Source of the DNA: Methanobacteriota archaeon
GTDB taxonomy: Archaea; Halobacteriota; Methanosarcinia; Methanosarcinales; Methanosarcinaceae
DNA length: 60,530 nt
Reading direction: 5' to 3'
Assembly: GCA_016841625.1 (NCBI GenBank)
Contig: JAENYU010000005.1
Location: 83,353 to 143,882, forward strand
Shown: positions 6,464-23,266 of the stretch, in pieces
Layout of the letters: each line of letters opens with the position of its first letter
Position numbering within the stretch: the first letter of the stretch is position 1
Notes under the pieces: model-generated
Told to the model about the DNA's origin: nothing
The model's input: only the letters and a program-made list of their open reading frames with translations
The model's database searches: none
Translations under genes and position numbers: made by a program

Positions 6464-8989
6464 TCAAACCTTAATCTCTTCCCCGTTTAACACAGCTTCT
6501 TCACTAACCCCTACTTCTTTTGTCGTGCTTCCGTAACTGACAAGATAAGGCCTGACCGGAGCCGTGTCAAATTGGGTCTCTCCGGAAATCGGGCCTTCGG
6601 TTGAGTAAGGCACTGTGAACTCGTACCTGCCTTCCGCATCCGCAGTTGTAGACTGGGAGTATTCAAAGTCCCTGCCCTGCCCTGTCATAATGCTTGTGTC
6701 TATCATGACCTTCTCATTCGGGGAAGCAGTCCCGGTTATTTTTGCACCTTTTACGTATTCGAAAATCTTCACGTAACCGGTGTCCGCCTCATCAAGTTTG
6801 CCTCTAGGGTCATCAGCAGCAAGCTGAGTGAGATAGAAATAATTGAACACCTGCTTGTATCCTAATTCAGCTGTCTGCCCCGCCCAGGTCTCGTGAACCA
6901 GACGGTACTGCTCAAGCCCGGTCCCGTCAAAGAGGTGGAGCCTGGCTTCCATGGAATTGTAGTAGCGCAGGGCTGGCAGGGTCTGGTACCCGTTTCCTGT
7001 TAAGATCGATTCGTAGTAACCCTCAGAGTCCAGGGTCCAGGCGGTCATTGCATAGAACTTGCCTGTGGCCATCTCCACATCTGATACGATGTAGCGGGCT
7101 GCAGCTTTGTCGGGGTCAGGATGGATGGCTTCGAGGATGTCGGTTGCTTCTTCTTCGGACTGGGCGGTGAAGAAGGTGGATGCCCCCGGTTGATTCTCTT
7201 CTTCAAGGCTGTTCCTGCGCCCGCCAACCCCCTGCTGGAAGGGGTTTGCGTTCGGAATCCGGTGCCCGATTACTTCGATCCAGTGGCCGTAGTCCCACCA
7301 GGACATTACACCGTAGGCAGAGTCAGGGTAGGAGTAAAGTTCCCCATCTGCGGGAATTTCATAGTTTTCATAGTAGTCCAGCCCGGGGTCCGGAGTGTTG
7401 GAGTTAAGCCAGAGGGTTGCTTCGATCCAGGGGCCGTTGGGACCGCCTGTTCCCTTGGTGTATTCCATGGCAAGGCCGTAGCTCGGGACGATGAGGACAA
7501 GCGCAGAAACCAGAAGCACAACTATTGAAAAAGCTTTTTTTGCGCTCAGGTTTTTCCGGACAAAGTCAGGGATTTCTGCAACGGTTTTTACTTTTGCTCC
7601 GAAATCATCGGAAAGGGATTTCAAACCGACAGAGTCCGCAATCCAGATCGCAAAATAGGCAGAAAGGATGGCGACATTCACCGAAAAGTAGTACGCAAAA
7701 CGGTTCTGCTGAAGCATTGCCCAGAAAATCATCAGGGTCCAGACAAGCAAGAAGGTTTTTTCCTGACTGTTCTTTTTGAAAGTTTCATAAACGAGAGCTG
7801 CAAGCCCCAGAAACACAACGTATCCACCATATGCAAACTGGGCATAGAGCTGTTCTAATCCGCCTCTGCTGAAGAATGGGGAGGCTTCTGCAACAGTGAG
7901 AGCCCCACCGGTACGCATGAAGTAACTGAAGATGCTCATCATCAATCCGTAAACGGATGGCATGAAAGCTTTTGCAAGAAGGATACCGGCTCCGAAAAGC
8001 ACGATGAGTGCGATGGGGTAATAGAACTTTGGAAGTTTCCTTTCAGTCATGTAAAGAGAGATCCCGGTAAGAACCGGAAATGCCAGAATCCCTGCAAAAA
8101 GCCCTTTTATGTACATGGACTTTGTGCCGCCCAGGAAAGGAGTGGGCATTATCAAGAGGAGAGCAACGGCAAAGACGACTATTCCTGAAATTGCCAGGTA
8201 TTCCGTCTGTTTACCTTTCATGTGGTCAAAAATATGTTGAATTGTAATGTACACACCAAGGATGAATGCGAAAAAGAGTGCACCTTTCCAGGCAAGAGCG
8301 TAGGCTCCGAGAAAGAAACCCGCAAGCAGAAGATAAGGAATTGCAGGCTTCAGGGACTCGAATTCCTTATCCCTTATCCTTTCAAATGAAATCCCGGATT
8401 TACCTGCTTTATTCAAGGCCATTACAAAAAACATCGCTGTAACCGTACTGAGCAGAGTTTCGGCAATATGGTGGTCGTTAAAGCCAATCATAGACCTTGA
8501 AAGAAACTGCCCTGGCTGAACGGCGAGGATAAACACAGCAAGTAAGCCAATCCTGCGGTCGTCAAAGATCCATTTTGCGACAAAATACGTGGGGATAAGG
8601 ACGAGAGCTCCCAGGAAAGAAGGATAATATGCGCTAACGTTGTTGATTAAATCCTGGCTCGGATTCCCTCCGCCCAGAACCCAGATAATTGCGGCAAGGA
8701 ACATATCATAGAGGGGCGCAAAAACCTGGTTGGTTCCGAAAGGATAGTGGGTGTGGGCATCGAACCAGAGCATGTTTGGAAAATTATGAAGGATGGACTC
8801 TACGTTTCTTAAATGGTACCAGGGGTCATTTCCTCCGAAGCGGACAAAGCCGTTTGAGAGGAAGACTCCTGCTTTTGGGAGAGTTCGAATATAAAAAGCT
8901 ACGAGGAAAGAAATAATGACTCCAAAAAAGTATGGAAGGCTTTTTAAAAGCTCCTTTGTTCTTTCATTCTCAGCATTCATAAGGCACAC
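6464..8989 (-). CDS. aglB: AglB/STT3 oligosaccharyltransferase
   Basis: The 841-residue membrane enzyme transfers a lipid-linked glycan to asparagine in N-x-S/T sequons on the outer face. The first ~490 residues contain about a dozen transmembrane segments, with the first acidic catalytic motif in FGGNDPWYH near residue 55. The C-terminal globular domain carries WWDYGHW near residue 563, the STT3 hallmark, followed by a beta-rich domain. Start: GTG at 8989 or ATG at 8980 (MNAENERT), neither with a clear ribosome site; the difference is three residues. The gene is alone on its transcript and borders the surface-glycan island, whose products it may use. Confidence 0.95.
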
Positions 8990-9407: not shown

Positions 9408-10529
9408 TTAACTATTCTCTCTTTTATTTGGTTCCCAGATGTGGACGTCTTTTCTTATATTCAGGAGGCCACGGAAAAGGTACCACTGGTAGATGATAAA
9501 TGAAGAAAGCATGTTTGATTTGAAATTTCCTGCAAGTACTGCGGCAATTATGAGTCCGAGAAGCCCGATACCATAGAGGATGTTAATTGAAGAGAGAAAT
9601 ACCGTCCAGAGTATGATTGACAAAAAGAATGCTGCAGGAGCTACAAAAAACATCAGAAATCGCAATGGGAAGATGAGCATTCCGAACTTACCATACTTTG
9701 GAGACATGAGATCCAGATTCATGATAGTTGCTTCCATGAGCCTTGTGGCTCTTCTTATCTTCTGCTTTTTTTGCTCCGAAAATTCAAAAGGAACGTACTC
9801 GTAAAACTTGGCTGAGGGAACATACTTGCACATGTACCCATTACGGATAATTGAAAGAGCCCTGCTTGCGTCATCCGCTCCTTTTCTAGCATGCAGGGAA
9901 GGGGAAGCATCTCTTTTGAAAGCCACCACTGCTCCGTTCAGGCAGTAAGTGGAATGGACGTTACTTTCCCATACACCTATTTTTCCATAAATCGAGCGGT
10001 ATGCAGACTCGGATTTGGAAAAGAGGGTATCACCTTTTGATAGGGGGACAATGTCGCCGCAGACAGCCCCGATTTTATCTTCACTTAAGAGGACAGTTAC
10101 AAGATCCGGAATGGTATCTTTGTCAAACCTGCCGTCTGCCCCTGTAATGACGATTATGTCAGAGGAAGCATCTTCGATCCCGCGGTTGATGGCTTTGTTA
10201 GCGCCGCTCCGAGAATGAGTGATTACTTTTCCTTTCACGGAGTTCTTCTTCAGGGCTTCGAGGGAGACTTTTTCAGTGTTGTCTGTTGAGCCATCGTTGG
10301 AGATGATTATTTCTAGTTTGTCTTTCGGGTAGATTTCTGCAAGGTTGTCGATGTGGTCCGGGAGGACAAGTTCTTCATTGTAGGCGGGGATAACTATGGA
10401 GACATTTGGGAGAGATTCAACATGCTTAATTTTCACCTGTTTCTGATTAAATGCCGCAATTATGTAGATTAGATAAACAACTAGCGGAATTGCCGTAATA
10501 AGAAGGGTTAAAACAAACAAATAATTCAT
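9408..10529 (-). CDS. Membrane glycosyltransferase, family 2
   Basis: The 373-residue protein has an N-terminal membrane segment (residues ~3-27), a GT-A catalytic domain, and two or three C-terminal membrane segments (from about residue 285). GT2 landmarks are SIVIPAYNEE, the ISNDGSTDNT nucleotide-binding loop, VITGADGRFD (DxD-like metal site) and the later acceptor region with RRATRLMEA in place of the QxxRW motif of processive synthases. The layout resembles polyprenyl- or hyaluronan-synthase-like enzymes building surface polymers. It is transcribed away from the rest of the island and has clearly higher GC than the genes that follow. Donor sugar unknown. Confidence 0.88.
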   Translation of the reverse strand: MNYLFVLTLLITAIPLVVYLIYIIAAFNQKQVKIKHVESLPNVSIVIPAYNEELVLPDHIDNLAEIYPKDKLEIIISNDGSTDNTEKVSLEALKKNSVKGKVITHSRSGANKAINRGIEDASSDIIVITGADGRFDKDTIPDLVTVLLSEDKIGAVCGDIVPLSKGDTLFSKSESAYRSIYGKIGVWESNVHSTYCLNGAVVAFKRDASPSLHARKGADDASRALSIIRNGYMCKYVPSAKFYEYVPFEFSEQKKQKIRRATRLMEATIMNLDLMSPKYGKFGMLIFPLRFLMFFVAPAAFFLSIILWTVFLSSINILYGIGLLGLIIAAVLAGNFKSNMLSSFIIYQWYLFRGLLNIRKDVHIWEPNKRENS

Positions 10530-10911
10530 GATGGTTATCCTCTAACTTTAAAAGTTAGTCAGCAATACAATCAACAATCTATTAAGCAATCAATATTAAT
10601 TTTATTTAAACACTGTGGACAGCAAATCTAAATAGAAAAACGTCCACAAATAGATAAAAGTTTGGAATATCACACCTTCACGAAAATCGATTAATACAAG
10701 AATGCCTGCAAATTAAATCAGGAGATTTTCATGAAGAACAGTATGCTCTCATGGTACATCTCCCATTGATTCCCGGATAATTAACAAGGCAAGGAATCAA
10801 AATCCTTTCAATTTTTTTCATTATAACTTTGAAGTTTATGGTAACAATATATAATAATCGGGAAATTTTGTGTAAATTTGTGATGGGGTCAAATGAATGA
10901 AAGGAGATAAC
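10530..10911. other. Spacer between divergent glycosyltransferase genes
   Basis: No coding sequence seen. For the + strand gene, an AT-rich element AATATATAATAA at about 10846-10857 is a plausible TATA box, giving a leader of about 30-40 nt, and AAAGGAGAT at 10900-10908 is a strong ribosome site. The remainder is AT-rich sequence marking the left edge of the low-GC island. Confidence 0.6.
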
Positions 10912-12837
10912 ATGGAAAACACCGATATTAAACATCTGGTTTTCTGCGAAAAAAACTCATTTCAACAAGTCAAATCCTTACTTATTTCTGAAAAACATGT
11001 TACACTAGTATGCTTGGATGAAGAAATTAGAGAAGAATTAGAAAGAAAAAAAATACCATACAAAGTAATTTCCGACTATAAATTTGATTTTGACATTGCA
11101 AATAAATGTATAGATTGGTTTAAAACATGGGCGAATTCTAAAATTTTTGAAGGGAAAAACGTAAAAGAATTATTTACTTACAGGCAAGTTTCCTTATGGT
11201 GGTTCATGGAAATAGCGATTTTCGAATCGTTCAAAGGAGTCAAATTTCCAATTCCAATCAAAAAAATAATTGAAGAAATAGAGTTTGTAAAAAAAGTAAT
11301 TGAAACTGAAAAACCAGAAAGAGTAACAGTACTTAACACAAATGATCCCTTTCATATCATTATCAGTGAAATAAGTAACTCAATGGGTCTAAATTCGAGA
11401 GTTGTTCGAACTAGGGCAGTCATACTCAGAGAATTAGGCTGGTCTAAAGGCTTTCCACTGTTTATAAAATTATTTTCAAAAACAAGGCACTTTATTAGAA
11501 GAACATTATCAAGTGTGTTAAAACTCATATTTAGGGAACAAAATTGTAAATCAACAAAAAAAGTAATGATAATTTCAATCAACATCAACTGGCGGAACAA
11601 AAAAGATTTCATATTTGGAACATTGATTGAAGAATTAAGCAAAAGTGGGAAAAAAAGTGTTACCCATATCGATTTTCCTGGTTTTTCCTTAATAGGTATA
11701 CGACAAATATTTGAGAAAAAAATGTCTGATCATGAGAACATCACTTACAAAATTATTGAAGACTATTCAGCAAACACATCCATAAAAGAGGCAGTAACAG
11801 AAATAAAAAAGAAGTACTCTCAAATCAAGAAAGAAAAGATCTTTTACGAAGCTTTCGACATAAGTAGCTTTTTTTACAAACAAATGGATTTCCATTTCCA
11901 TTATTATGGTTTGTCAAACTATATTTACTACATAGAGTCAATGCTAAAGGCAATAGGAGATGAAAAGCCTGAAGCAATTATTTTAATTGACGAGTATAAT
12001 CCAGTAGGAAGAGCAACCGTTGTAGCTGGGAAAATATCCGGGATAAAAACTATCGCGATTCAGCACGGGGCAATAACTCGAAACCGACTCAGTTATCTTC
12101 ATTATAAAGATGAAGTTTCAAAAAATAATGATTTCAGGTCACCTTATTATCCATTACCTGACATTACAGCAGTATTCGGACCTTATTATCAAAAATATCT
12201 CTATGAGATAGGAAACTATCCAGAAAGCAGTATTTCAGTAACTGGAGCCCCACGTTATGATGAACTGGTAGATGGGAAAAACGAATATAATAAAAAGCAA
12301 ACGTACAAAAAGTTGAATTTAGATCCTGACAAAAAACTTGTAGTTTACACATCCCAACCCCTTGAAAAAGAAGAAAACGACAGGATCCTCTTAAGCATAC
12401 TTAAAGCTCTTTCAGAATTACCAGATTTCCAATTAGTAATTAAAATGCATCCTACTGAAAGAGGAATTAATACAGAACTAATCGACAAATTTGATGAAGA
12501 TGTTATTGTTATTAAGAAATTTGATATCTACGAAATTTTAAACGCCTGCGATGTCATGCTAACAGCTTTTTCAACCACTGCTCTTGAAGCCATGATGCTT
12601 GGGAAGCCAGTGATCACAATAAATTTTACAGGGAAACCGGATGTAATGCCCTACGTCCAAAGCGGAGCAGCTATCGGGGTTTACCAAAGAGAGAAACTTT
12701 CATTAGCTATAAAATCCATATTTGAAGATGAACATATTAGAAAAGAATTGGAAGTGAATAGTAAGGAGTTTGTTCATCAGCATGCATATAAAATTGACGG
12801 AAAAAGTACGAAACGAATAATGGAACTAATACCATAA
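10912..12837 (+). CDS. Large GT-B-type glycosyltransferase of the glycan island
   Basis: The 641-residue protein has no close family that I recognise across its full length. The C-terminal half looks like a GT-B fold: QHGAITRNR, a GAPRYDEL segment, a TSQPLEKEENDR beta strand-loop, KMHPTE, and the donor-site signature AFSTTALEAMMLGKPVITIN. These features recur in CDP-glycerol/polysialyl-type and capsule transferases and in UDP-GlcNAc 2-epimerase relatives. The N-terminal ~250 residues are lysine-rich and of unknown fold. Start ATG at 10912 is chosen because AAAGGAGAT precedes it; the in-frame ATG at 10897 would overlap that site. Its AT-rich codon use matches the island. A role adding an acidic nonulosonic sugar is suggested by the NeuB/NeuA genes next door, as inference only. 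Confidence 0.78.
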   Translation: MENTDIKHLVFCEKNSFQQVKSLLISEKHVTLVCLDEEIREELERKKIPYKVISDYKFDFDIANKCIDWFKTWANSKIFEGKNVKELFTYRQVSLWWFMEIAIFESFKGVKFPIPIKKIIEEIEFVKKVIETEKPERVTVLNTNDPFHIIISEISNSMGLNSRVVRTRAVILRELGWSKGFPLFIKLFSKTRHFIRRTLSSVLKLIFREQNCKSTKKVMIISININWRNKKDFIFGTLIEELSKSGKKSVTHIDFPGFSLIGIRQIFEKKMSDHENITYKIIEDYSANTSIKEAVTEIKKKYSQIKKEKIFYEAFDISSFFYKQMDFHFHYYGLSNYIYYIESMLKAIGDEKPEAIILIDEYNPVGRATVVAGKISGIKTIAIQHGAITRNRLSYLHYKDEVSKNNDFRSPYYPLPDITAVFGPYYQKYLYEIGNYPESSISVTGAPRYDELVDGKNEYNKKQTYKKLNLDPDKKLVVYTSQPLEKEENDRILLSILKALSELPDFQLVIKMHPTERGINTELIDKFDEDVIVIKKFDIYEILNACDVMLTAFSTTALEAMMLGKPVITINFTGKPDVMPYVQSGAAIGVYQREKLSLAIKSIFEDEHIRKELEVNSKEFVHQHAYKIDGKSTKRIMELIP

Positions 12838-12884: not shown

Positions 12885-13145
12885 CGGCCACTCCACCCTA
12901 AAGGAGAGGGTATTCTTCTGGTCGCCAGCTCGGTTTCTTGGGAACAGTTTAGTATCATGTAACAAGGTTTCCTTAATATAGAATAGCATTTACAAATCCT
13001 GGAACCATAGTACCAAGAAACCTCATTTTAAAATGAAGTAATGATTTATCGATTTAAAGGAGCACAAAAAACGTGCGAGAATTCGCTTCATCCCCGGCCT
13101 GAAGGGCGCGGTACTCGTGACCCTCCGCGCTCCAGATGGGATAAA
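12885..13145. mobile_element. IS200/IS605-like end fragments
   Basis: No ORF occurs in the 12838-13330 spacer. At 12895-12911 a short hairpin (ACCCT/AGGGT) is followed by TATTCTTCTGG, the hairpin-plus-GTATTC pattern of IS200/IS605 right ends. At 13089-13140 a second degenerate hairpin (CCCCGGCCTGAAGGGCGCGG) is followed by TACTCGTGACCCTCCGCGC. The 14-mer TCGTGACCCTCCGC (13115-13128) recurs after the NeuB/NeuA pair. Downstream, 13160-13320 is very AT-rich promoter-like sequence. Assignment to IS200/IS605 rests on pattern only. Confidence 0.5.
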
Positions 13146-13330: not shown

Positions 13331-14206
13331 GTGTCGAATATGGTAAAAGTCATTGCAGAAATAGGCTGTAATCACAAAGGGGAAATGGAAATTGCACATG
13401 AAATGATAAAAATTGCTTCCCAGTTTTGCAAAGTTGATGTTGTCAAATTCCAAAAACGTAATCCTAAAGAACTGCTTAATTCTGAGGAATATAATGCTCC
13501 ACATCCGGTACCCGAGAATTCATATGGAAAAACATATGGAGAACACCGGGAATTTCTTGAATTTAATCTGGAACAGCACAAACAGTTAAAAGAATGGTGT
13601 GAGGAATGGGAGATCGAATATTCAACTTCCGTATGGGATATGACTTCTGCAAAAGAGATTGCTTCATTAAATCCTGAAATGATCAAGATCCCATCCGCAT
13701 GCAATTTGAAATTTGACATGCTTGAATATCTTTGCAAAAGCTATGGAGGAGAAATTCATCTTTCTTTTGGCATGACATCCCATGCCGAAGAAAATCATAT
13801 TGTAGAGTTCTTTGAAGATAATGGTCGTGCAGAAGACCTTATAATTTACAGCTGCACATCAGGATATCCAGTGTCCTTTGAAGACATCTGCTTAAAAGAG
13901 ATTTTAAGGCTTAGAGAGAAATTTGAAAAGAGAGTCAAAGGCATTGGATTTTCAGGACATCATTTAGGGATTGCAGCTGACATCGCAGCACTTGCCTACG
14001 GGGCGGATTATTTCGAACGTCATTTTACACTGGATCGAACCTGGAAAGGAACAGACCACGCAGCGAGCCTTGAACCTGACGGCATGAGAAGGCTTACAAG
14101 AGATTTGAGAAATGTATCAAGGGCATTGACTTACAAAGAGAAAGAGATCCTTGAAATAGAAGAGGTCCAGAGAAAGAAGCTTAAGAGGTTCTCTTGTGCT
14201 GAATAA
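13331..14206 (+). CDS. neuB: NeuB-type nonulosonic acid synthase, lacking SAF domain
   Basis: The 291-residue TIM-barrel enzyme condenses phosphoenolpyruvate with a hexosamine (N-acetylmannosamine or a modified or phosphorylated form) to give a sialic-acid-like sugar. Landmarks: IAEIGCNHKGEMEIA at the N-terminus, DVVKFQKR, KIPSACN, GFSGHHLGI and the barrel end YFERHFTLDRTWKGTDHAAS. Typical NeuB is about 340-350 residues with a C-terminal SAF (antifreeze-like) domain; that domain is absent here and the frame stops soon after the barrel. Start GTG at 13331 follows GAGGAG by four bases; an ATG three codons later is the alternative. It overlaps the next gene by 11 bp, so translation is coupled. 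Confidence 0.88.
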   Translation: MSNMVKVIAEIGCNHKGEMEIAHEMIKIASQFCKVDVVKFQKRNPKELLNSEEYNAPHPVPENSYGKTYGEHREFLEFNLEQHKQLKEWCEEWEIEYSTSVWDMTSAKEIASLNPEMIKIPSACNLKFDMLEYLCKSYGGEIHLSFGMTSHAEENHIVEFFEDNGRAEDLIIYSCTSGYPVSFEDICLKEILRLREKFEKRVKGIGFSGHHLGIAADIAALAYGADYFERHFTLDRTWKGTDHAASLEPDGMRRLTRDLRNVSRALTYKEKEILEIEEVQRKKLKRFSCAE

Positions 14207-15425
14207 ATACATTGCCCTGGTGCCCGCAAGGGGAGGTAGCAAGAGCATCCCATTAAAGAACATCAAAGAAATTGCAGGCAAACCTCTTGTTTGCTGGGTT
14301 CTTGAAGCAGCAATAAACTGCGACCAAATAGCAAAGGTGTATTTATCTACAGATTCGGATCTGATCGGAAACGTTGGACAATCTTTAAATCATGAAAAAT
14401 TAGAAGTTATCAGCAGAAGTCCTGATACAGCCACGGACTATGCAAGTACAGAGTCTGTGATGATTGAGTTTGCCAACTCCCATGATTTTGAAAACATCAT
14501 ATTGATACAGGCAACCTCCCCCCTGCTTACATCAAAAGAACTTGAAGAAGCAATTTCTATATTTGAGAGAGAGAAAGCAGATTCTCTGCTTTCAGTAGTA
14601 GAACAGAAAAGGTTCATGTGGAAATTGACAAAAGAAAATTTTGTGAGACCATTAAATTATGACCCAAAATGTCGGCCCAGAAGACAGGATTTTAATGGGG
14701 CCTTAATAGAAAATGGGGCATTTTACATAACAAAGAAAAACCTTCTTCTTGAAAAAGAATGCAGAATTTCTGGCAAAATTACATACTATAAGATGCCAGA
14801 AGAAACTTATTACGAAATAGATGAGCTCCATGATTGGATAATCGTTGAAAACTTGCTCTTACAAAGAAGTAGAACTAACATCTCTAAGGAAAAGAATGAT
14901 ATCAAGCTATTTTTAATGGATGTAGACGGAGTTCTTACCGACGCAGGCATGTATTACACTGAAAAAGGAGATGAACTCAAAAAATTCAATACTCATGACG
15001 GGAAAGGGATTGAACTTTTGAGGCAAGCAGGTATTAAAACCGGTATAATCACCAGTGAAAATACAAAAATTGTTGAAAATCGGGCAAGAAAATTGAAGAT
15101 AGATCATCTGCATCAAGGTGTAAAAGACAAGCTAACTGTTGCAAAAGAGATTTGTAAGAAAGAGGAAATCACATTAAGTGAAGTTGCCTACATTGGTGAC
15201 GATGTTAATGATACAGAGTTACTGAAAAAGGTGGGAGTTGCAGCTTGCCCTATAAATAGCCTTGGTGCAGTAAAAGAGATACCTAATATAATAAAACTCC
15301 AAAAAAGCGGTGGGAACGGCGCCGTAAGAGAATTGGTAGATATTATATTATGTTCGGGGAATAGCATCAACACTCCTTTTGCAGTTAGAAAAGGGTGCTC
15401 AATTGAAGGTAAAAAAAATCCATAA
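14196..15425 (+). CDS. neuA: CMP-nonulosonate synthetase fused to KdsC-like HAD phosphatase
   Basis: The 409-residue protein has two parts. Residues 1 to about 230 form a CMP-sialate-type cytidylyltransferase (ALVPARGGSKSIPLKNI, then LIQATSPLL and RRQDFN...ENGAFYI). Residues about 237-395 form a HAD phosphatase of the KdsC/8-phosphatase type: LFLMDVDGVLTDAG (nucleophile DxD), TGIITSEN, KDKLTVAKE and YIGDDVNDTELL. The same order is known from vertebrate CMAS and some bacterial NeuA proteins. A phosphatase fused here suggests that the NeuB partner may make a phosphorylated sugar. GTG start inside neuB, with GAGGTT upstream. CMP-activated product would feed a transferase such as the 10912 gene. 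Confidence 0.9.
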   Translation: MLNKYIALVPARGGSKSIPLKNIKEIAGKPLVCWVLEAAINCDQIAKVYLSTDSDLIGNVGQSLNHEKLEVISRSPDTATDYASTESVMIEFANSHDFENIILIQATSPLLTSKELEEAISIFEREKADSLLSVVEQKRFMWKLTKENFVRPLNYDPKCRPRRQDFNGALIENGAFYITKKNLLLEKECRISGKITYYKMPEETYYEIDELHDWIIVENLLLQRSRTNISKEKNDIKLFLMDVDGVLTDAGMYYTEKGDELKKFNTHDGKGIELLRQAGIKTGIITSENTKIVENRARKLKIDHLHQGVKDKLTVAKEICKKEEITLSEVAYIGDDVNDTELLKKVGVAACPINSLGAVKEIPNIIKLQKSGGNGAVRELVDIILCSGNSINTPFAVRKGCSIEGKKNP

Positions 15426-15489: not shown

Positions 15490-15530
15490 ACTGTGAAGGT
15501 AAGGGCATTCGTGACCCTCCGCACTTCCTT
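15490..15530. repeat. Second copy of the TCGTGACCCTCCGC repeat
   Basis: TCGTGACCCTCCGC at 15509-15522 is identical to 13115-13128 and in the same orientation; flanking bases (AAGGGC before, CTTCC-like after) also resemble. The two copies bracket exactly the neuB and neuA-HAD genes. The rest of the 15426-15599 spacer is AT-rich with no gene. Confidence 0.75.
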
Positions 15531-15599: not shown

Positions 15600-16763
15600 A
15601 TGAATCCAACATTACTTTTCGTTCAAGCTGAAAAATTAAGTTATAATAGTGCAGCCCAATCAAGATTTTTGTACATATCTAAAGAACTACAAAATATAGG
15701 ATATAAATCTATTGTAATAGGAAAATCTTTAAAAAAAGATATTAACAACAAAATGGTATCACTTCCTTTTGTTAAGGAAAAAAGTCTCTTTTCAAGAATA
15801 ATTCAAGATATACAAATTTACCTATACTCATTTAAATATATTTTATTTTCAAATATTAGATTTGTCTATGTTCGTCGTACAAATATCTTGATACCCATAA
15901 TTATATTTGCCAAACTATGTGGAAAAAAAGTGATATATGATTTTCACGGTTACAGATTGATTAACTCAACTTTTCCTAGAAAAATAAATTCAAGTCAAAG
16001 AGTGGATAGGTATTTAGAATTGCAACTTTTAAAAGTATCAGATTACGTTATTACAGTAAGTGAAACCTTAAAGTCTCAATTGCCTCCAAAATATCAAAAA
16101 AAAACTTTAGTTATTGAGAATAGTGTAGATCTTGGAATTTTTAAAAATCAACTTGGAATAAAACAAATAAAATTTTTAAAGGAGAAATATGGGATAAAAG
16201 ACGAAAATAAAAAAGTAGTTTTTTTTGTCGTAGGAGGAAGCAGGTCAGAGTATTATCCTGAAGATCTAATTGAAATGCAAAGGTATGTAGATAACATTTA
16301 CAGTTTGATTGTTTGTAATTTAACAGCATATCGCAATTTAAAAAAAATATCTGCAAAATATGATGATGTATTATTATATGATAATATTCCAAATCAAGAG
16401 GTAATATCTATATTGAAATACGTAGCAGATATATGCATTATCCCTTATGATAAGGACAGTCCAAATTCCCATATTAAAAATTATTGTTGTTGCCGAAAAT
16501 CAAGTGAATACCTTGCTTCTGGAAAGCCAATAATTATTTCTGAAGTTGAAAGAATTCCAGTTTATTTAAAAGAAAAAGAAAATTATATCACTTACAAATC
16601 AAAAGATCCTCAAGACCTCGCTGACAAAATTAACTTATTGCTTGAAAATAAAAACCTATACGAACAAATGTGTAGAAACAATTCAGAACTTGCTCAAAAA
16701 GTTACTTGGGGAGAAAGTATAAAAAAATCAGGCATCTTAAATATATTAGATAAGAGGATATGA
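15600..16763 (+). CDS. Glycosyltransferase, family 4 type
   Basis: The 387-residue protein shows a GT-B architecture: an N-terminal Rossmann half with DFHGYRLIN, a linker ITVSETLKSQLP, IENSVDLGIF (the usual GT4 junction), and a C-terminal donor-binding half ending in CCRKSSEYLASGKPIII. The classical EX7E motif is modified, with KSSEYLASGKPIIISE in its place. Codon use is extremely A-rich, the most extreme in the island. The ATG at 15600 lies 174 bp after the neuA gene, and the upstream sequence (AAATAAGAGATTTTT) carries only a weak ribosome site. Donor and acceptor are unknown. Confidence 0.85.
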   Translation: MNPTLLFVQAEKLSYNSAAQSRFLYISKELQNIGYKSIVIGKSLKKDINNKMVSLPFVKEKSLFSRIIQDIQIYLYSFKYILFSNIRFVYVRRTNILIPIIIFAKLCGKKVIYDFHGYRLINSTFPRKINSSQRVDRYLELQLLKVSDYVITVSETLKSQLPPKYQKKTLVIENSVDLGIFKNQLGIKQIKFLKEKYGIKDENKKVVFFVVGGSRSEYYPEDLIEMQRYVDNIYSLIVCNLTAYRNLKKISAKYDDVLLYDNIPNQEVISILKYVADICIIPYDKDSPNSHIKNYCCCRKSSEYLASGKPIIISEVERIPVYLKEKENYITYKSKDPQDLADKINLLLENKNLYEQMCRNNSELAQKVTWGESIKKSGILNILDKRI

Positions 16764-16880: not shown

Positions 16881-18053
16881 TTAGGAATTATACAGAACCA
16901 ATTTTTGATATATATCTATTATTTTCTCACATACTACTTTGGTACTATAGTTATCATTTACATATTTTTTGATTACACTGGCATCATACTTATCATAATT
17001 CTTAATCATTTCAATAATTCCCTCTGAAAGGCTATCTACACTCTCTTTTTCGACCAGTATACCTACTGCATCTTTAATGTAATCTTCTGGACCACCACAG
17101 CGAGTAGCGATAACAGGTATTCCAGATGCCATCGCTTCAATTCCTACTACGCCAAATGTTTCACTCCTACTAGAAATAATTAAAATGTCTGACGAATTTA
17201 GATAGTTTCCTAAATTATTATTATCTACTCGCCCATGAAAGGTACAAAATTCTTGTAAATTTAATTCTTCGGCTAAATTTTCATATTTTTGTTTTTCAGC
17301 ACCGTATCCGATTAAGTGTAAATGAACATTTTCATATTTATTGGAATAAATCACGTTATGCAAACTTCTCAATAGAATATCTATACCCTTTATATATTTC
17401 ATTACGGATACGTGTACCAAATTAAATATATTATTGTATCCATCCTTAGGTTTTTTAGTCGAATTGAATTTTTCCGTGTTGATAAAATTTGGTATCACTT
17501 CACATTGTTTTCTTCCAGTTTTAACTATTTTATTTTTTAGATCAGAACTTACTGCACTATAATAATCAGCTTTTATTAAAGTTTCTTTTGTGTAACTACT
17601 ATATTTAGTCATCAATGTATTTTCAAAAAATGAGGCGTGTTCTGTAACCATGTATGGAACTTTAAATTTGTTACTCAAGACCATGGCTCCATATCCAGCA
17701 GGATAACTTACGTGGGCATGAATTAAATCGGGCACCCCAAATTTTTTAATAACTTCTTGATATCCTTCTATCAATCTTTTTTCATAAATCTTGTTACTTA
17801 ATATTGTGATCTTTGGTGCCCAATTTACATAATTAAGTTTGAAAGTAAATAATCCATTCTCTCTGTTGGTAACTTTGCGTTTAGTATGGATGATTTTTCT
17901 TGGTTGATTTAATCGAATAGAATTAACACTCAAAACAGCCACGTCAACATATTGATTTAGAGCTTCAGCTTGTTCTTTTAAAAAAATACCGCGAATAGGA
18001 TTATCTTCACTAGGATACCAAGATGGTAGTATAAGAACTTTCAATCGACGCAT
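16881..18053 (-). CDS. Glycosyltransferase, family 4
   Basis: The 390-residue GT-B enzyme has a clear GT4 pattern: LILPSWYPSEDNPIRGIF with the glycine-rich acceptor loop, DLIHAHVSYPAGYGA, VIPNFINTEKFN at the domain junction, HLIGYGAEKQKYE, and the EX7E donor motif within SSRSETFGVVGIEAMASG. It would move a nucleotide-sugar hexose or similar onto a lipid-linked or polymer acceptor at the cytoplasmic face. Transcribed last in a four-gene unit (two nucleotidyltransferases, flippase, this gene), 52 bp after the flippase. Start MRRLKVLILP is the first ATG. AT-rich codons as in the rest of the island. Confidence 0.9.
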   Translation of the reverse strand: MRRLKVLILPSWYPSEDNPIRGIFLKEQAEALNQYVDVAVLSVNSIRLNQPRKIIHTKRKVTNRENGLFTFKLNYVNWAPKITILSNKIYEKRLIEGYQEVIKKFGVPDLIHAHVSYPAGYGAMVLSNKFKVPYMVTEHASFFENTLMTKYSSYTKETLIKADYYSAVSSDLKNKIVKTGRKQCEVIPNFINTEKFNSTKKPKDGYNNIFNLVHVSVMKYIKGIDILLRSLHNVIYSNKYENVHLHLIGYGAEKQKYENLAEELNLQEFCTFHGRVDNNNLGNYLNSSDILIISSRSETFGVVGIEAMASGIPVIATRCGGPEDYIKDAVGILVEKESVDSLSEGIIEMIKNYDKYDASVIKKYVNDNYSTKVVCEKIIDIYQKLVLYNS

Positions 18054-18105: not shown

Positions 18106-19464
18106 TCATCTGAATATTGAATCTTTCACTGTATTGATACCTTCCTGAAATAATAATTTGTCACTAGAACTAAATAAAATAGCTTTCCACCATGGGTTTT
18201 TGCTGAGGTGAGAATATAGCCATAATTTAGCAACAGCATTCAAACCATAGGCGATAGTAGTGGCCATGGCTGCTCCCACAATACCTAACCTTGGGATTAG
18301 AATTATATTACAAATTATATTAACAGAAACTACCAATATTGAAGTATACAAATTTAATTCTGGTCTGCCCCGTGCAGCAATATCATTTGCCAGTATCCGT
18401 GACATACTACCGACCAGAATACCTGGAAGAAGCCATAGAAGTGCACCGACGGCTGGAGTAAATTCACTACCATATAACAGGTTAATTAGAGGCGATGCCA
18501 ATAGTGCTAAGACCAATGTGCCGACTGCTGAAACTAGCAAAACCCAACGAGCAATTAAAGGGGTGAGTTGTTGGCGTTTTTCATCGTCGTTATGCAATTC
18601 AGATAGACGTGGTAAAAGCACCGTGCTTACTGCCTGTGATAATATCCATAGTTTCTCAGCAATTTGTACAGCAATTAAATAGATCCCTGTAGCTGCTGGT
18701 GTAAGAAAGAAATTCACTAAAAAGAGATCAGCTCTGTAGTTTACAAAAGCAAGGATATTACTCAAATGTGCCTTCCAACCATATCCAAGACATTCTTTGG
18801 TATAATTTTTTAAAACATCATTTTCATGCTTTTCATTGTCTTTTTTGAGGTGAGGCTTTAAAATAATCAGTGTAGTTATCAGCCCACATAAATTACCGAT
18901 AATAAAAGATAATAAAGCTCCAAATACGCCAAGTTTTAATATCCCTACTAGAAATACCGCAAGTAGTAGCGTCATGCCAGGCGTTATCAACGAGACATAG
19001 TTATAATTTTTAAAATCCTGTAACCCTTGAAATAGACTGCTCAAGAATGCCTGAAGTAATGATAATGGAAATGCTAAAATGCCAAGCCAGAGAATAGATA
19101 GAGGTACGCCTGGAAACCAGGTATTGCTTTGAGTTTCAAGTACTAATGCAGCTATTAAAACGCCTATTATACATAAAATAAACCAAAGCCAAAGATTAGT
19201 TTTAAACGCAGAATTGAGTTTAATTTTTTTTGAAGCAATAAAGTAAACGTTAGCAGGAGACACTCCAATATTAAGAAAACTAGCAAGCATCGTTGGTAAA
19301 AGAATCCCCATTGCATATTGACCATTGCCCATTGGACCCAATGAGCGAGCCAAAAGTATAGATAGTCCTAAACCGATGACTATTCCGATCGCTTGACGGA
19401 AAAGTGTACCAAGGATGTTTTTACCTAACTTCATTAGATTTAATTTAGCAATTGTTGGCCCCAT
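18106..19464 (-). CDS. Polysaccharide/lipid-linked glycan flippase (Wzx/RfbX type)
   Basis: The 452-residue membrane protein has about 12-14 hydrophobic segments spanning its length, with an N-terminal LGLSILLARSLGPMGNGQYA pattern typical of the MOP-superfamily flippases of O-antigen and teichoic-type pathways. It would carry a lipid-linked oligosaccharide to the outer face, where AglB or a polymerase could use it. Start at 19464 overlaps the preceding nucleotidyltransferase by 20 bp; a second ATG ten codons in (MKLGKNILG) would remove most of the overlap. GC content is a little higher than in its neighbours, which may mean a separate origin for this gene. Confidence 0.9.
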   Translation of the reverse strand: MGPTIAKLNLMKLGKNILGTLFRQAIGIVIGLGLSILLARSLGPMGNGQYAMGILLPTMLASFLNIGVSPANVYFIASKKIKLNSAFKTNLWLWFILCIIGVLIAALVLETQSNTWFPGVPLSILWLGILAFPLSLLQAFLSSLFQGLQDFKNYNYVSLITPGMTLLLAVFLVGILKLGVFGALLSFIIGNLCGLITTLIILKPHLKKDNEKHENDVLKNYTKECLGYGWKAHLSNILAFVNYRADLFLVNFFLTPAATGIYLIAVQIAEKLWILSQAVSTVLLPRLSELHNDDEKRQQLTPLIARWVLLVSAVGTLVLALLASPLINLLYGSEFTPAVGALLWLLPGILVGSMSRILANDIAARGRPELNLYTSILVVSVNIICNIILIPRLGIVGAAMATTIAYGLNAVAKLWLYSHLSKNPWWKAILFSSSDKLLFQEGINTVKDSIFR

Positions 19465-20581
19465 TAAATAATCGTTCCTTTTTTATATTTGCAATCCATT
19501 GCCAGTACCCCTTATAAAATAATTGAATGATGGGATTTGAGGAATCATATGGCATCCCTAAGTATCCTCCCATTGAATAATTTATATTCTTTTCTTTCAA
19601 AAACAGGCTGTGACTATAAACAATCTTGGATCTTTTATTTAATATATTGTTATATTTGTTTGTGTTCAAAGTTAATGTAAGATCTTTTTGAAAACATTTA
19701 TCTGGAGATCCATACTGGTTTAGATGAACTGCATATTCTAAAGGTGCATAAGTAGTTATAAATGGTACAGTGTAATTCTTGATTTTTAAATTACGAATCA
19801 ATGAATAAGGTTCTGATATATTGGCAGAACAGATAATCCTTTTATTCCGGCTTTCAAAAATACATGGACCCGAAAGTATTTCCGGCCCCTCAATTCTTAT
19901 GGAACTTTCTTTGCATGCAGTTTTCATAACTTCTTTTGCAACTGCTTCTGAACGATAAAATATATTTAAAAAATAATCATTATTAAGAGGATTTCCTTTT
20001 AACCAGTTTTCTCTAAGATTCTTTATATCTTCAATAATTTTACATGAGTTTTCACTTAGTTTTATTTCCGCATATTGACAAAGATTCTGTGTGTGAACAT
20101 ATGACCATAATCTGGTCATCCATGCTCGTTTATCAATTTTACCCTGTTGTTTAGTTTTTGCATATTGTACCAACCTGCTTTCCGTAAAATCTACCAAATA
20201 TGCTAAAGAAATGTTTTTTTTCTCAAGATTTGAGAGTTCACTTACTTTTGAAGCTAACTCTACTTCGTCTGTATCTGTTAAGTTTGAAGCATATATAAGA
20301 TATTGCAAATCTCCAATCATACTTTCAGGAACGATGACTGGACCATGCAAAAATATATTCTTGTCTAAATGATTTACGGATAACTTATTTGAGTATTTCT
20401 TATTAAAATTATCTTTAACCACACATATTACATCTAAATCAGATAGACCTGGGGCTCCAATAGAGCCCATTGTCATGACACCTACAAGATCATTTACATA
20501 TTTTACTCCATCTACGTATTTTTTCAGTTCTTCTTCGTATTTTGATCTTGCAATAGAAACTGGTTCATTGAATATCATCAT
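19445..20581 (-). CDS. Polymerase-beta-type nucleotidyltransferase, second of a pair
   Basis: The 378-residue soluble protein carries the nucleotidyltransferase signature near its N-terminus: MGS (G39-S40) followed by SDLDVI (D48, D50). This matches the hG[GS]...DxD metal and NTP site of the polymerase-beta superfamily. The rest has no recognisable domain; residues ~100-200 look helical, like the substrate-binding halves of aminoglycoside-type enzymes. Start MMIFNEP at 20581 overlaps the upstream partner by 4 bp (ATGA-type coupling), and its end overlaps the flippase gene. The likely chemistry is transfer of a nucleotide, or an NMP-activated group, to a glycan or lipid, but no substrate can be named. 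Confidence 0.72.
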   Translation of the reverse strand: MMIFNEPVSIARSKYEEELKKYVDGVKYVNDLVGVMTMGSIGAPGLSDLDVICVVKDNFNKKYSNKLSVNHLDKNIFLHGPVIVPESMIGDLQYLIYASNLTDTDEVELASKVSELSNLEKKNISLAYLVDFTESRLVQYAKTKQQGKIDKRAWMTRLWSYVHTQNLCQYAEIKLSENSCKIIEDIKNLRENWLKGNPLNNDYFLNIFYRSEAVAKEVMKTACKESSIRIEGPEILSGPCIFESRNKRIICSANISEPYSLIRNLKIKNYTVPFITTYAPLEYAVHLNQYGSPDKCFQKDLTLTLNTNKYNNILNKRSKIVYSHSLFLKEKNINYSMGGYLGMPYDSSNPIIQLFYKGYWQWIANIKKERLFNGANNC

Positions 20582-21552
20582 ATTTGTAACCTATTTTCAA
20601 GTTCTTTATACAGGGGGAGAATGCCAGGCACAACGTTTTCATAGAGATCATCTTTAATATATTTATTATTATACCCCAATCGAGAAATGTATGTTAGTTT
20701 TGATGCAAATGGAAGTTTTCTGGATCCAAGAATCAATTCTCTTATCAATGATGGTGTTTTTGGCCAATTATTTCTTATTTTACTTGCTTCTTTGATCGGA
20801 TCCGCCAAGTCCCCATATTCTTTATAAAAAATATCAAATGAATCAGCTTTGTGCATCGGACAACCTACATCTGTGTAATAGAATGCTGGAATAAGCATTA
20901 AATTACTAAGATATCTTTTCATTTGATACATATTGTGCCCATGTCTAAAAAATTTTTTATGATTTAAAAGCGATTCGCATGTTATAAGGGATAGTGCTTT
21001 TGTCTCGGTTAGGGGAAAATCACAATCAAAATGTCTGAAGTTCATCTCAATTTCTTTTACTCCCCATGAGCGCCGATAAACTTCTATGGGAAGAATATCC
21101 TCAGAATAATTAGATATCAAAGAGTCCCACAGGTAAAAAGAACCATGGTGCTGCAGAGGGTCAACTGAAAGCATAAATGTAAAAAAATCCCTTTCAGACC
21201 AATTTCTAAAAGAATTCATTAGGTCCTTGTTTTGAAATATTTGTTCATCAATATATAAAGTGAGATCCAGATCGCTATAATTTGTGAATGTCATGTCACC
21301 ATAACTGCCATGTACGATCACATTTTTTAGGAAGCCTTTTTTAAATCCCTGGTCAAATAAAATTTCTAATTTGTTATACCACCATATTTTATTAATAACA
21401 GTTTGATCGATTTCAGGAACAGTTACATTTGAAGTTATTAATTTATTCTTAGTTTTTGTGGATAATGGTTCAATCTGAAAATCCGTGGATGTATTCAAAC
21501 TTTTCTCAAAAAACTTTGAAATCCGGCAATATTTTTCACGAGTAGGTGACAT
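20578..21552 (-). CDS. Polymerase-beta-type nucleotidyltransferase, first of a pair
   Basis: The 324-residue protein has the same kind of active-site motif as its downstream neighbour, here further inside: HGSYGD (G82-S83), then YSDLDLTLYID with D94 and D96. A basic N-terminal ~60 residues precede the fold. The C-terminal part includes FFRHGHNMYQMKRYL and conserved-looking cysteines. Outside the motif the two proteins show little similarity, so they are a pair of distinct enzymes and not a recent duplication. First gene of the minus-strand unit with the flippase and GT4. Start MSPTREKYC; no strong ribosome site. Function unknown; a glycan-modifying role is inferred from context. Confidence 0.72.
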   Translation of the reverse strand: MSPTREKYCRISKFFEKSLNTSTDFQIEPLSTKTKNKLITSNVTVPEIDQTVINKIWWYNKLEILFDQGFKKGFLKNVIVHGSYGDMTFTNYSDLDLTLYIDEQIFQNKDLMNSFRNWSERDFFTFMLSVDPLQHHGSFYLWDSLISNYSEDILPIEVYRRSWGVKEIEMNFRHFDCDFPLTETKALSLITCESLLNHKKFFRHGHNMYQMKRYLSNLMLIPAFYYTDVGCPMHKADSFDIFYKEYGDLADPIKEASKIRNNWPKTPSLIRELILGSRKLPFASKLTYISRLGYNNKYIKDDLYENVVPGILPLYKELENRLQI

Positions 21553-21889: not shown

Positions 21890-23266
21890 TCAGCTCCTCC
21901 CATACACATCATCGAACCTCACAATATCCCCTTCATCCACCATCTCTCCCAGCTGCACCTCAATAATCTCCAGCGGAACTTTCCCCGGATTCGACAACCT
22001 GTGTTTTTCTCCCGCACGAATAAAGGTACTCTCTCCGGGCCTTAAAAAGAACTTTTCCCCGTTAACCTCGACACATGCCATCCCCTTCACAACTACCCAG
22101 TGCTCGCTTCTATGATAGTGCATCTGAAGACTCAACTTATGCTCAGGAAGTACAGCAATATTCTTAATCTTGTGCCCTGGCGAGCTTTCAAGCAGAGAAT
22201 AGGAACCCCAGGGCCTGTATACTTTCTGCCCTATGTACGCCCTTTCATCGTCCCTACTTTTGAGCTCGGTAACGATTTCTTTTACTTTCTGGCTACTCTC
22301 TTTGGGACAGACCAGCAGGGCATCCGGGGTATCAACAACAACAAGGTCATTTACATCTATAAGGGAAACAATCTTTCCTGTCTTTGAGTGAATTAAGTTT
22401 CCGGTAGAGTTCAAAAGGAAGGGGTCACATCTATGGACCACGTTTTCATCCTTATCCTTTTCAAACTCATCGTAAATTGCAGAGAAATTCCCGAGATCAC
22501 TCCACTTATGGTCCAGCCTGACAACCGCAACTCTATCGGATTTTTCCATAATACCGTAGTCAACGGAGATTTTTTCCACGTTTTCGTAGATCCCGGCAAT
22601 ATCCTCGAATTGCTCAAAACAGGCAAGGACTTCAGGAGCATGCATCCTGACTTCTTCAAAAAAGAGATCGGTGTCAAACAAAAACATCCCACTGTTCCAG
22701 AGACAGCCTTCTTCGATATACTTTTTTGCGGTATCCTCGTCCGGTTTTTCCCTGAACCCGGAAACACGGTAGCCGGGGCCAAGAGGTTCGGCAGGTTTAA
22801 CGTAGCCGTAGCCTGTATTCGGGGAGGTTGGCACGACTCCGAAGGTCACGAGAGAAGAGGATACCAATTCTTCTGCAGAGGAAATGGTTTGCATGGAGGC
22901 TTTATCGAGGACGTGGTCGGAGGAGAAAACCCCGACAGTGGATTTCCCGAAAATCCTTTCAATCTCCTTCATTCCGTAAAGGATAGCAGGAAGGGTGTTC
23001 TTTCCTTCGGGTTCGATCAGGATGTTTTCGGGAGGGATTTCATGACCGAGTTCCTTGATCTGCCCCATCACGAAAAACTTCTGGGCTTCATTGGTGACCA
23101 CGAAAAGTTCTTCAATTTTGGAAATTTCGAGGCAGCGGAGCACCGTGTCCTGGAAAAGGGACCTCTCGCCGAATTTGAGGAACTGTTTCGGGTACATTTC
23201 CCGGCTCAGGGGCCAGAGCCGTGTTCCCGACCCGCCTGCAAGGATGATTGACTTAATGCTTTTCAT
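21890..23266 (-). CDS. manC: Mannose-1-phosphate guanylyltransferase / mannose-6-phosphate isomerase
   Basis: The 458-residue bifunctional type II enzyme has an N-terminal pyrophosphorylase (residues 1-~290) with IILAGGSGTRLWPLSREMYPKQF, GVFSSDHV, FREKPD and WNSGMFLF. A linker leads to a C-terminal cupin isomerase (from ~345): YRPWGSYSLLE, HYHRSEHWVVVKG. It makes GDP-mannose for surface glycans, the central donor for mannose, rhamnose or fucose branches. GC content is back to genome-like, so it may be resident rather than imported. The start ATG has GAGGATATC ahead; directly upstream is the structured element at 23270. Confidence 0.95.
   Translation of the reverse strand: MKSIKSIILAGGSGTRLWPLSREMYPKQFLKFGERSLFQDTVLRCLEISKIEELFVVTNEAQKFFVMGQIKELGHEIPPENILIEPEGKNTLPAILYGMKEIERIFGKSTVGVFSSDHVLDKASMQTISSAEELVSSSLVTFGVVPTSPNTGYGYVKPAEPLGPGYRVSGFREKPDEDTAKKYIEEGCLWNSGMFLFDTDLFFEEVRMHAPEVLACFEQFEDIAGIYENVEKISVDYGIMEKSDRVAVVRLDHKWSDLGNFSAIYDEFEKDKDENVVHRCDPFLLNSTGNLIHSKTGKIVSLIDVNDLVVVDTPDALLVCPKESSQKVKEIVTELKSRDDERAYIGQKVYRPWGSYSLLESSPGHKIKNIAVLPEHKLSLQMHYHRSEHWVVVKGMACVEVNGEKFFLRPGESTFIRAGEKHRLSNPGKVPLEIIEVQLGEMVDEGDIVRFDDVYGRS

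Follow-up and report, generated by a model that had tools for sequence, protein, structure and literature searches.

We found a pair of genes, here called NT1 and NT2, that encode nucleotidyltransferase (NTase)-fold proteins and that occur together in both bacteria and archaea. With a probability of roughly one half, we consider NT1-NT2 to be a mobile two-protein glycan-tailoring module, in which the pair puts a nucleotidyl or phospho-substituent on a lipid-linked oligosaccharide before flipping. That the pair has a role in glycans is highly probable. Only a few NTase-fold enzymes act on glycans, and both teichoic acid decoration and human dystroglycan disease have their basis in them. The conservation of this flippase-linked pair across domains points to a modification of surface glycans and flagellins that has not been recorded before.

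Gene layout

The window, i.e., the whole stretch of 60,530 nucleotides that was analysed, has the pair and its immediate neighbors on the minus strand:

20578-21552, minus strand: NT1, 324 aa, NTase fold with an N-terminal NTase domain and a helical C-terminal domain
19445-20581, minus strand: NT2, 378 aa, NTase fold
18106-19464, minus strand: Wzx/MOP-type flippase, 452 aa (Pfam scan: Polysacc_synt_3, 9e-23; MurJ, 4e-15)
16881-18053, minus strand: TuaC-like GT4 glycosyltransferase, 390 aa (Glycos_transf_1, 2e-35), a member of the four-gene cassette of loci L020-L023

The flippase and GT4 assignments are firm. NT1 and NT2 are intact genes located upstream of the flippase and then the GT4 gene, in agreement with the original prediction. 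The predicted overlaps were also borne out. The NT1 stop and the NT2 start share 4 bp (ATGA), and NT2 overlaps the flippase gene by 20 bp. The latter value depends on the flippase start chosen: it holds for the annotated start at the first ATG, and a start at codon 11, which is also an in-frame ATG, would abolish the overlap.

Active sites and family coverage

Both proteins have the expected GS...SDLD active site (NT1, HGSYGDMTFTNYSDLD; NT2, MGSIGAPGLSDLD). We looked for loss of the active site in homologs, and found that the motif is kept in relatives of both proteins, so it is not due to chance. In NT1, the motif HGSYGDxxxxxYSDLD spans residues 81-96, and takes the form HGS..SD[LFIV][DE] across relatives. 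G82, S83, S93 and D94 are present in 18 of 18 sequences, and residue 96 is D or E. A second NT1 motif is D131-PLQHHG-137 (D131-PxQHHG in the family); its Asp131 is likewise found in 18/18, and is Asn in a fusion protein discussed below (G625). P155, K212, K235 and R260 are nearly invariant in the alignment of relatives. The NT2 site occupies residues 38-50, with the family form PG[LI]SDxD. Here G39, S47, D48 and D50 occur in all 21 sequences, and the serine after G39 is variable. Other conserved NT2 residues are Y15, H79 (19/21), R152 and R190.

Beyond their active sites, the two proteins had been said to share little else. This is only partly right. A profile comparison yields an alignment of 82 columns (E = 5e-5, probability 67%), which pairs the QHHG of NT1 with an xLHG strand of NT2 as a second common motif. 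The profile alignment, as distinct from model coordinates, places no conserved acid of NT2 opposite Asp131 of NT1.

The window pair reaches no family at its cut-off in Pfam, NCBIfam or PHROGs. NT1 of the window matches Pfam Polbeta at 2.6e-4, which is under the cut-off, and its NT2 has no Pfam match. Among relatives, the NT1 part of L033 passes the NTP_transf_2 cut-off, and the NT2 part of L038 matches Polbeta at 2.9e-4, again under the cut-off. Single-protein searches with NT1 or NT2 gave no match in PDB sequences, plasmids or viral contigs. We found no earlier description of the pair in the open-access literature. NTase-fold glycan transferases as such are already known.

Structural similarity to aminoglycoside-modifying enzymes

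AlphaFold models of the single proteins (pLDDT 83 for NT1 and 85 for NT2) have an NTase domain plus a C-terminal helical bundle, as in AadA/ANT. The top PDB match in Foldseek is AAD(9) for both proteins, and AAD(9) and AadA are the nearest solved folds. The best E-value is weak for NT1 (9e-3) and modest for NT2 (2.5e-4), with low TM-scores of 0.3-0.4. A fold search of the NT1 model against viral models gave no E-value below 1e-3.

AadA and AAD(9) put AMP on hydroxyls of aminoglycosides, and AadA uses Asp47, Asp49 and Glu87 in catalysis, and Arg192 and Lys205 for ATP (PMC4631478). AadA/ANT(3'')(9) and AAD(9) resemble NT1 and NT2 in combining an NTase domain and a GS..SDxD site with a helical C-terminal bundle. 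The invariant K and R residues of NT1 may have roles like those of Arg192 and Lys205. However, AadA and AAD(9) are single resistance enzymes that are only ~10-14% identical to our proteins, whereas NT1 and NT2 are two proteins in glycan clusters, and the Glu87 base of AadA has no clear counterpart in NT2. KNTase and LinB are also of the NTase fold, and build their active sites from two subunits (PMC4631478), so they could serve as a model of how NT1 and NT2 might form a heterodimer. Unlike such a pair, they are homodimers that act on drugs, and their fold match is weak.

Distribution and pairing

As the query for a survey of ~85,000 species genomes, we took an alignment that covers the active-site region of NT2 and includes no information on NT1. 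This survey found 20 loci, distributed among Bacteroidota, Gammaproteobacteria, Sericytochromatia, Planctomycetota, Patescibacteria, Woesearchaeota and Nanohaloarchaea. The hosts include Splendidivirga, a Sericytochromatia bacterium, Methylotuvimicrobium buryatense, Rhabdochromatium, several Bacteroidota, a Planctomycetota bacterium, Patescibacteria, five Woesearchaeota and one nanohaloarchaeon, among others.

NT1 is present in all 20 of these genomes. In a six-frame HMM search, the two genes are adjacent on the same strand in 11 of the 20 (L020-L025, L028-L030, L032 and L037), with the NT1 of L024 truncated by the contig end. They are arranged tail-to-tail in five (L027, L031, L035, L036 and L039), are separated by a single sulfotransferase gene in two (L026 and L034) and are fused in the remaining two (L033 and L038). 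In each of the five Woesearchaeota loci, a protein of ~267 aa is encoded upstream of NT2 (L036:9046-9849; also L027, L031, L035 and L039). For the copy in L036, neither Pfam nor NCBIfam gave a match.

Searches with an NT1 profile added two loci. In the phylum to which L032 belongs, 247 genomes were searched and gave an NT1-NT2 fusion (G625). In that of L031, 123 genomes gave, in addition to loci already known, G781, in which NT2 adjoins NT1. The same search of 114 genomes in the class of L022 gave nothing beyond L022 itself. A further 17 weak matches to the NT1 profile (E-values ~1e-5 to 1e-7), in the phylum of a Woesearchaeota locus, were rejected as generic NTases, with no clear adjacent NT2 in the short loci fetched. 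In total, NT1 is paired or fused with NT2 in all 22 other loci found to have NT1, with fusions in three (L033, L038 and G625), consistent with the prediction that the two genes are coupled as one unit. Because of the searches from the NT1 side that yielded G625 and G781, we conclude that the module is rare and patchy, yet paired.

The G625 fusion is an ORF of 1141 aa that contains NT1, NT2, a stretch without a Pfam match and TPRs. We read the unmatched stretch as glycosyltransferase-like. Downstream are genes for large multi-domain glycosyltransferases (a GT9/GT1/GT2 protein and a further protein, by our reading a GT2), and then for flagellin and FliD. The whole stretch from the fusion onward (L046:8019-19667) is likely a flagellin glycosylation locus.

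Among the kin of the window organism, NT1 is rare: leaving aside the window's own genome, neither 150 relatives nor 393 genomes of the phylum gave an NT1 in sequence searches. The NT1 sequence alone matched only itself in the phylum sample. Distant relatives of NT2 occur in just two genomes, which look haloarchaeal and belong to another family of the phylum (L011 and L012). These NT2 genes lie between, and overlap, glycosyltransferase genes (L018:8937-10181 and L019:8963-10168). A profile search found no NT1 in either genome, and therefore the pairing is not obligatory.

The pairwise divergences of NT1 and NT2 across 18 loci are correlated (r = 0.92), and none of 5000 permutations reaches this value. 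When three close Woesearchaeota are removed, r is 0.87, again reached by 0/5000 permutations. Such a correlation is expected of co-inherited genes, and is not by itself proof of an interaction.

Flippases and other glycan genes near the pair

The gene order of the window, NT1-NT2-flippase-GT4, also occurs in L020, and the order in L021-L023 is NT1-NT2-GT4-flippase. In the Sericytochromatia locus, the flippase is split over two overlapping frames (L021:12069-13479), reflecting a frameshift or an assembly error. Overall, 15 of the other 22 loci have a flippase at most one gene away from the pair, which upholds the proposed coupling to a flippase. Thirteen of these flippases were recognized with a flippase profile built from these loci, and the others are MurJ-like genes in L030 and L032. 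Two of the seven loci without a flippase this close are contigs of <5 kb.

The commonest families among 123 neighbors are GT1/GT4, Polysacc_synt, methyltransferases, hexapeptide acyltransferases, DegT, Gfo/Idh and NeuB. We considered a role specific to nonulosonates and rejected it: NeuB is present in the window and in L030, L032, L033, L038 and L068, but absent from most loci.

Proposed function and alternatives

Because they occur in surface-sugar clusters beside a flippase, NT1 and NT2 probably add a group, perhaps one containing phosphate, to surface sugars before export. The proteins would act as one heterodimeric or tandem enzyme, which we take to be cytosolic since we noticed no transmembrane or export signal. 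NT1 would be the main catalyst, with its SDxD site and invariant Asp131, and NT2 a divergent partner with an SDxD site of its own. Using an NTP with Mg2+, they would transfer either a nucleotidyl group to a sugar hydroxyl, in the manner of AadA/ANT, or a phospho-substituent. The acceptor would be a lipid-linked oligosaccharide on the inner side of the membrane, and the adjoining flippase would then export the modified glycan. In the window organism, AglB could attach the exported glycan to protein.

The ANT-like fold and the canonical motif suggest that the group transferred is a nucleotidyl group, which is quite possible but tentative. To our knowledge, no glycan bearing a nucleotidyl group is known. 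It is conceivable, though rather unlikely, that NT1-NT2 represents a new heterodimeric glycan-modifying class that has spread across bacteria and archaea by transfer, and that caps or decorates lipid-linked surface glycans, prior to flipping, by adding a nucleotidyl group or another phosphodiester. If so, the product would be a type of surface glycan that is so far undescribed in either domain. The pair is directly testable, since there is one clear homologous locus (L022) in Methylotuvimicrobium buryatense 5G, which is genetically tractable.

The main rival to nucleotidyl transfer is that the pair, like LicD and FKRP, transfers to the glycan a phospho-alcohol or phospho-sugar taken from a CDP-type donor, which creates a phosphodiester, perhaps in two successive steps. 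The catalytic domain of FKRP has an NTase fold, and the LicD-type enzymes fukutin and FKRP sequentially add two ribitol phosphates to one glycan (PMC6965139, PMC4873967), a precedent for two sequential enzymes with a glycan acceptor. In view of this precedent, the statement in the original prediction that two such enzymes occur in no named glycan pathway is not supported in that wording. The unit, the flippase, the glycan context and the active site are supported, and the addition of nucleotidyl or phosphoryl groups to a lipid-linked glycan remains a hypothesis. In bacteria, the LicD-family protein CpsC works in capsule synthesis (PMC11666461). However, neither NT1 nor NT2 matches LicD (PF04991) in a Pfam scan up to E = 1, both have canonical GS..SDxD sites, and they adjoin a flippase. 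Moreover, no family that makes CDP-alcohols is among the 25 commonest neighbor families, the nearest folds are of the ANT type, and FKRP is not among the 50 fold matches listed for NT1 and NT2. We regard phospho-alcohol or phospho-sugar transfer as unlikely.

It is less probable still that the pair consists of soluble precursor enzymes that make an activated donor or a nucleotide-linked lipid, as Tam41 makes CDP-diacylglycerol. Tam41 demonstrates that an NTase fold can transfer NMP to a lipid phosphate (PMC11646218), and it appears in the fold list of NT2. This structural match is very weak (E ~0.5), however, and we detected no sequence relation of Tam41 to NT1 or NT2. The flippase is also a closer and more constant neighbor than any single sugar-nucleotide gene.

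We also considered regulatory nucleotidylylation, of the GlnE or DrrA type, of a glycosyltransferase or flippase, which would control glycan output. There is a match between the NT1 profile and DrrA in the active-site stretch of the latter (E = 2e-4), and a GlnE domain is in the NT1 fold list, but the DrrA match covers ~31 residues and reflects only the shared active-site motif. The partner genes differ from locus to locus in both family and order, which leaves no single protein as a conserved target, and we consider this function very doubtful.

Finally, although their fold resembles that of ANTs and of the MNT/MntA antitoxins of HEPN toxins, which have a minimal NTase domain, it is scarcely credible that NT1 and NT2 (324 and 378 aa, with helical domains) are toxin-antitoxin, defense or antibiotic-resistance proteins present in a glycan island by chance, and context and family scans speak against it: neighborhoods are of the glycan type wherever the flanks are long enough, with no HEPN partner noticed near the pair and no toxin or drug-resistance context seen, and for the window pair no PADLOC family matched below E = 0.01, and the MntA model, at 0.047, was far under its cut-off and gave no equivalog.

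A variable glycan island

Next to the gene for AglB, the N-glycan oligosaccharyltransferase, is an exchangeable glycan island that contains the NT1-NT2 module of the window. In addition to the genes listed above, the island and its borders comprise:

21890-23266, minus strand: ManC-type GMP/PMI, island edge (96-97% aa identity in same-genus genomes)
15600-16763, plus strand: second GT4-like glycosyltransferase
14196-15425, plus strand: CMP-sugar synthetase fused to a KdsC-like HAD phosphatase (NeuA-KdsC-like), a single ORF
13331-14206, plus strand: NeuB-family nonulosonate synthase
10897-12837, plus strand: surface-carbohydrate GT-B (TIGR04396/BFO_1060-like)
9408-10529, minus strand: GT2 glycosyltransferase, island edge (92% aa identity in one sister genome, 45% in another)
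6464-8989, minus strand: AglB oligosaccharyltransferase, conserved island flank (86-95% aa identity in sisters)

We regard the island as exchangeable because two same-genus genomes keep ManC and AglB, but differ from the window in most of the DNA between them. In these sisters, the manC-aglB interval holds other glycan genes, and is mostly low-GC DNA unrelated to that of the window. The only island content in common is the GT2 gene at the AglB edge, shared with one of the two. The GC content of NT1, NT2 and GT4 is 31-32%, lower than the 45% of the window, and ManC and AglB are at 48-49%. A 32-nt direct repeat with 78% identity (13100-13131 and 15494-15525) brackets the genes for NeuB and the CMP-synthetase/phosphatase, as if this block were a separate insertion.
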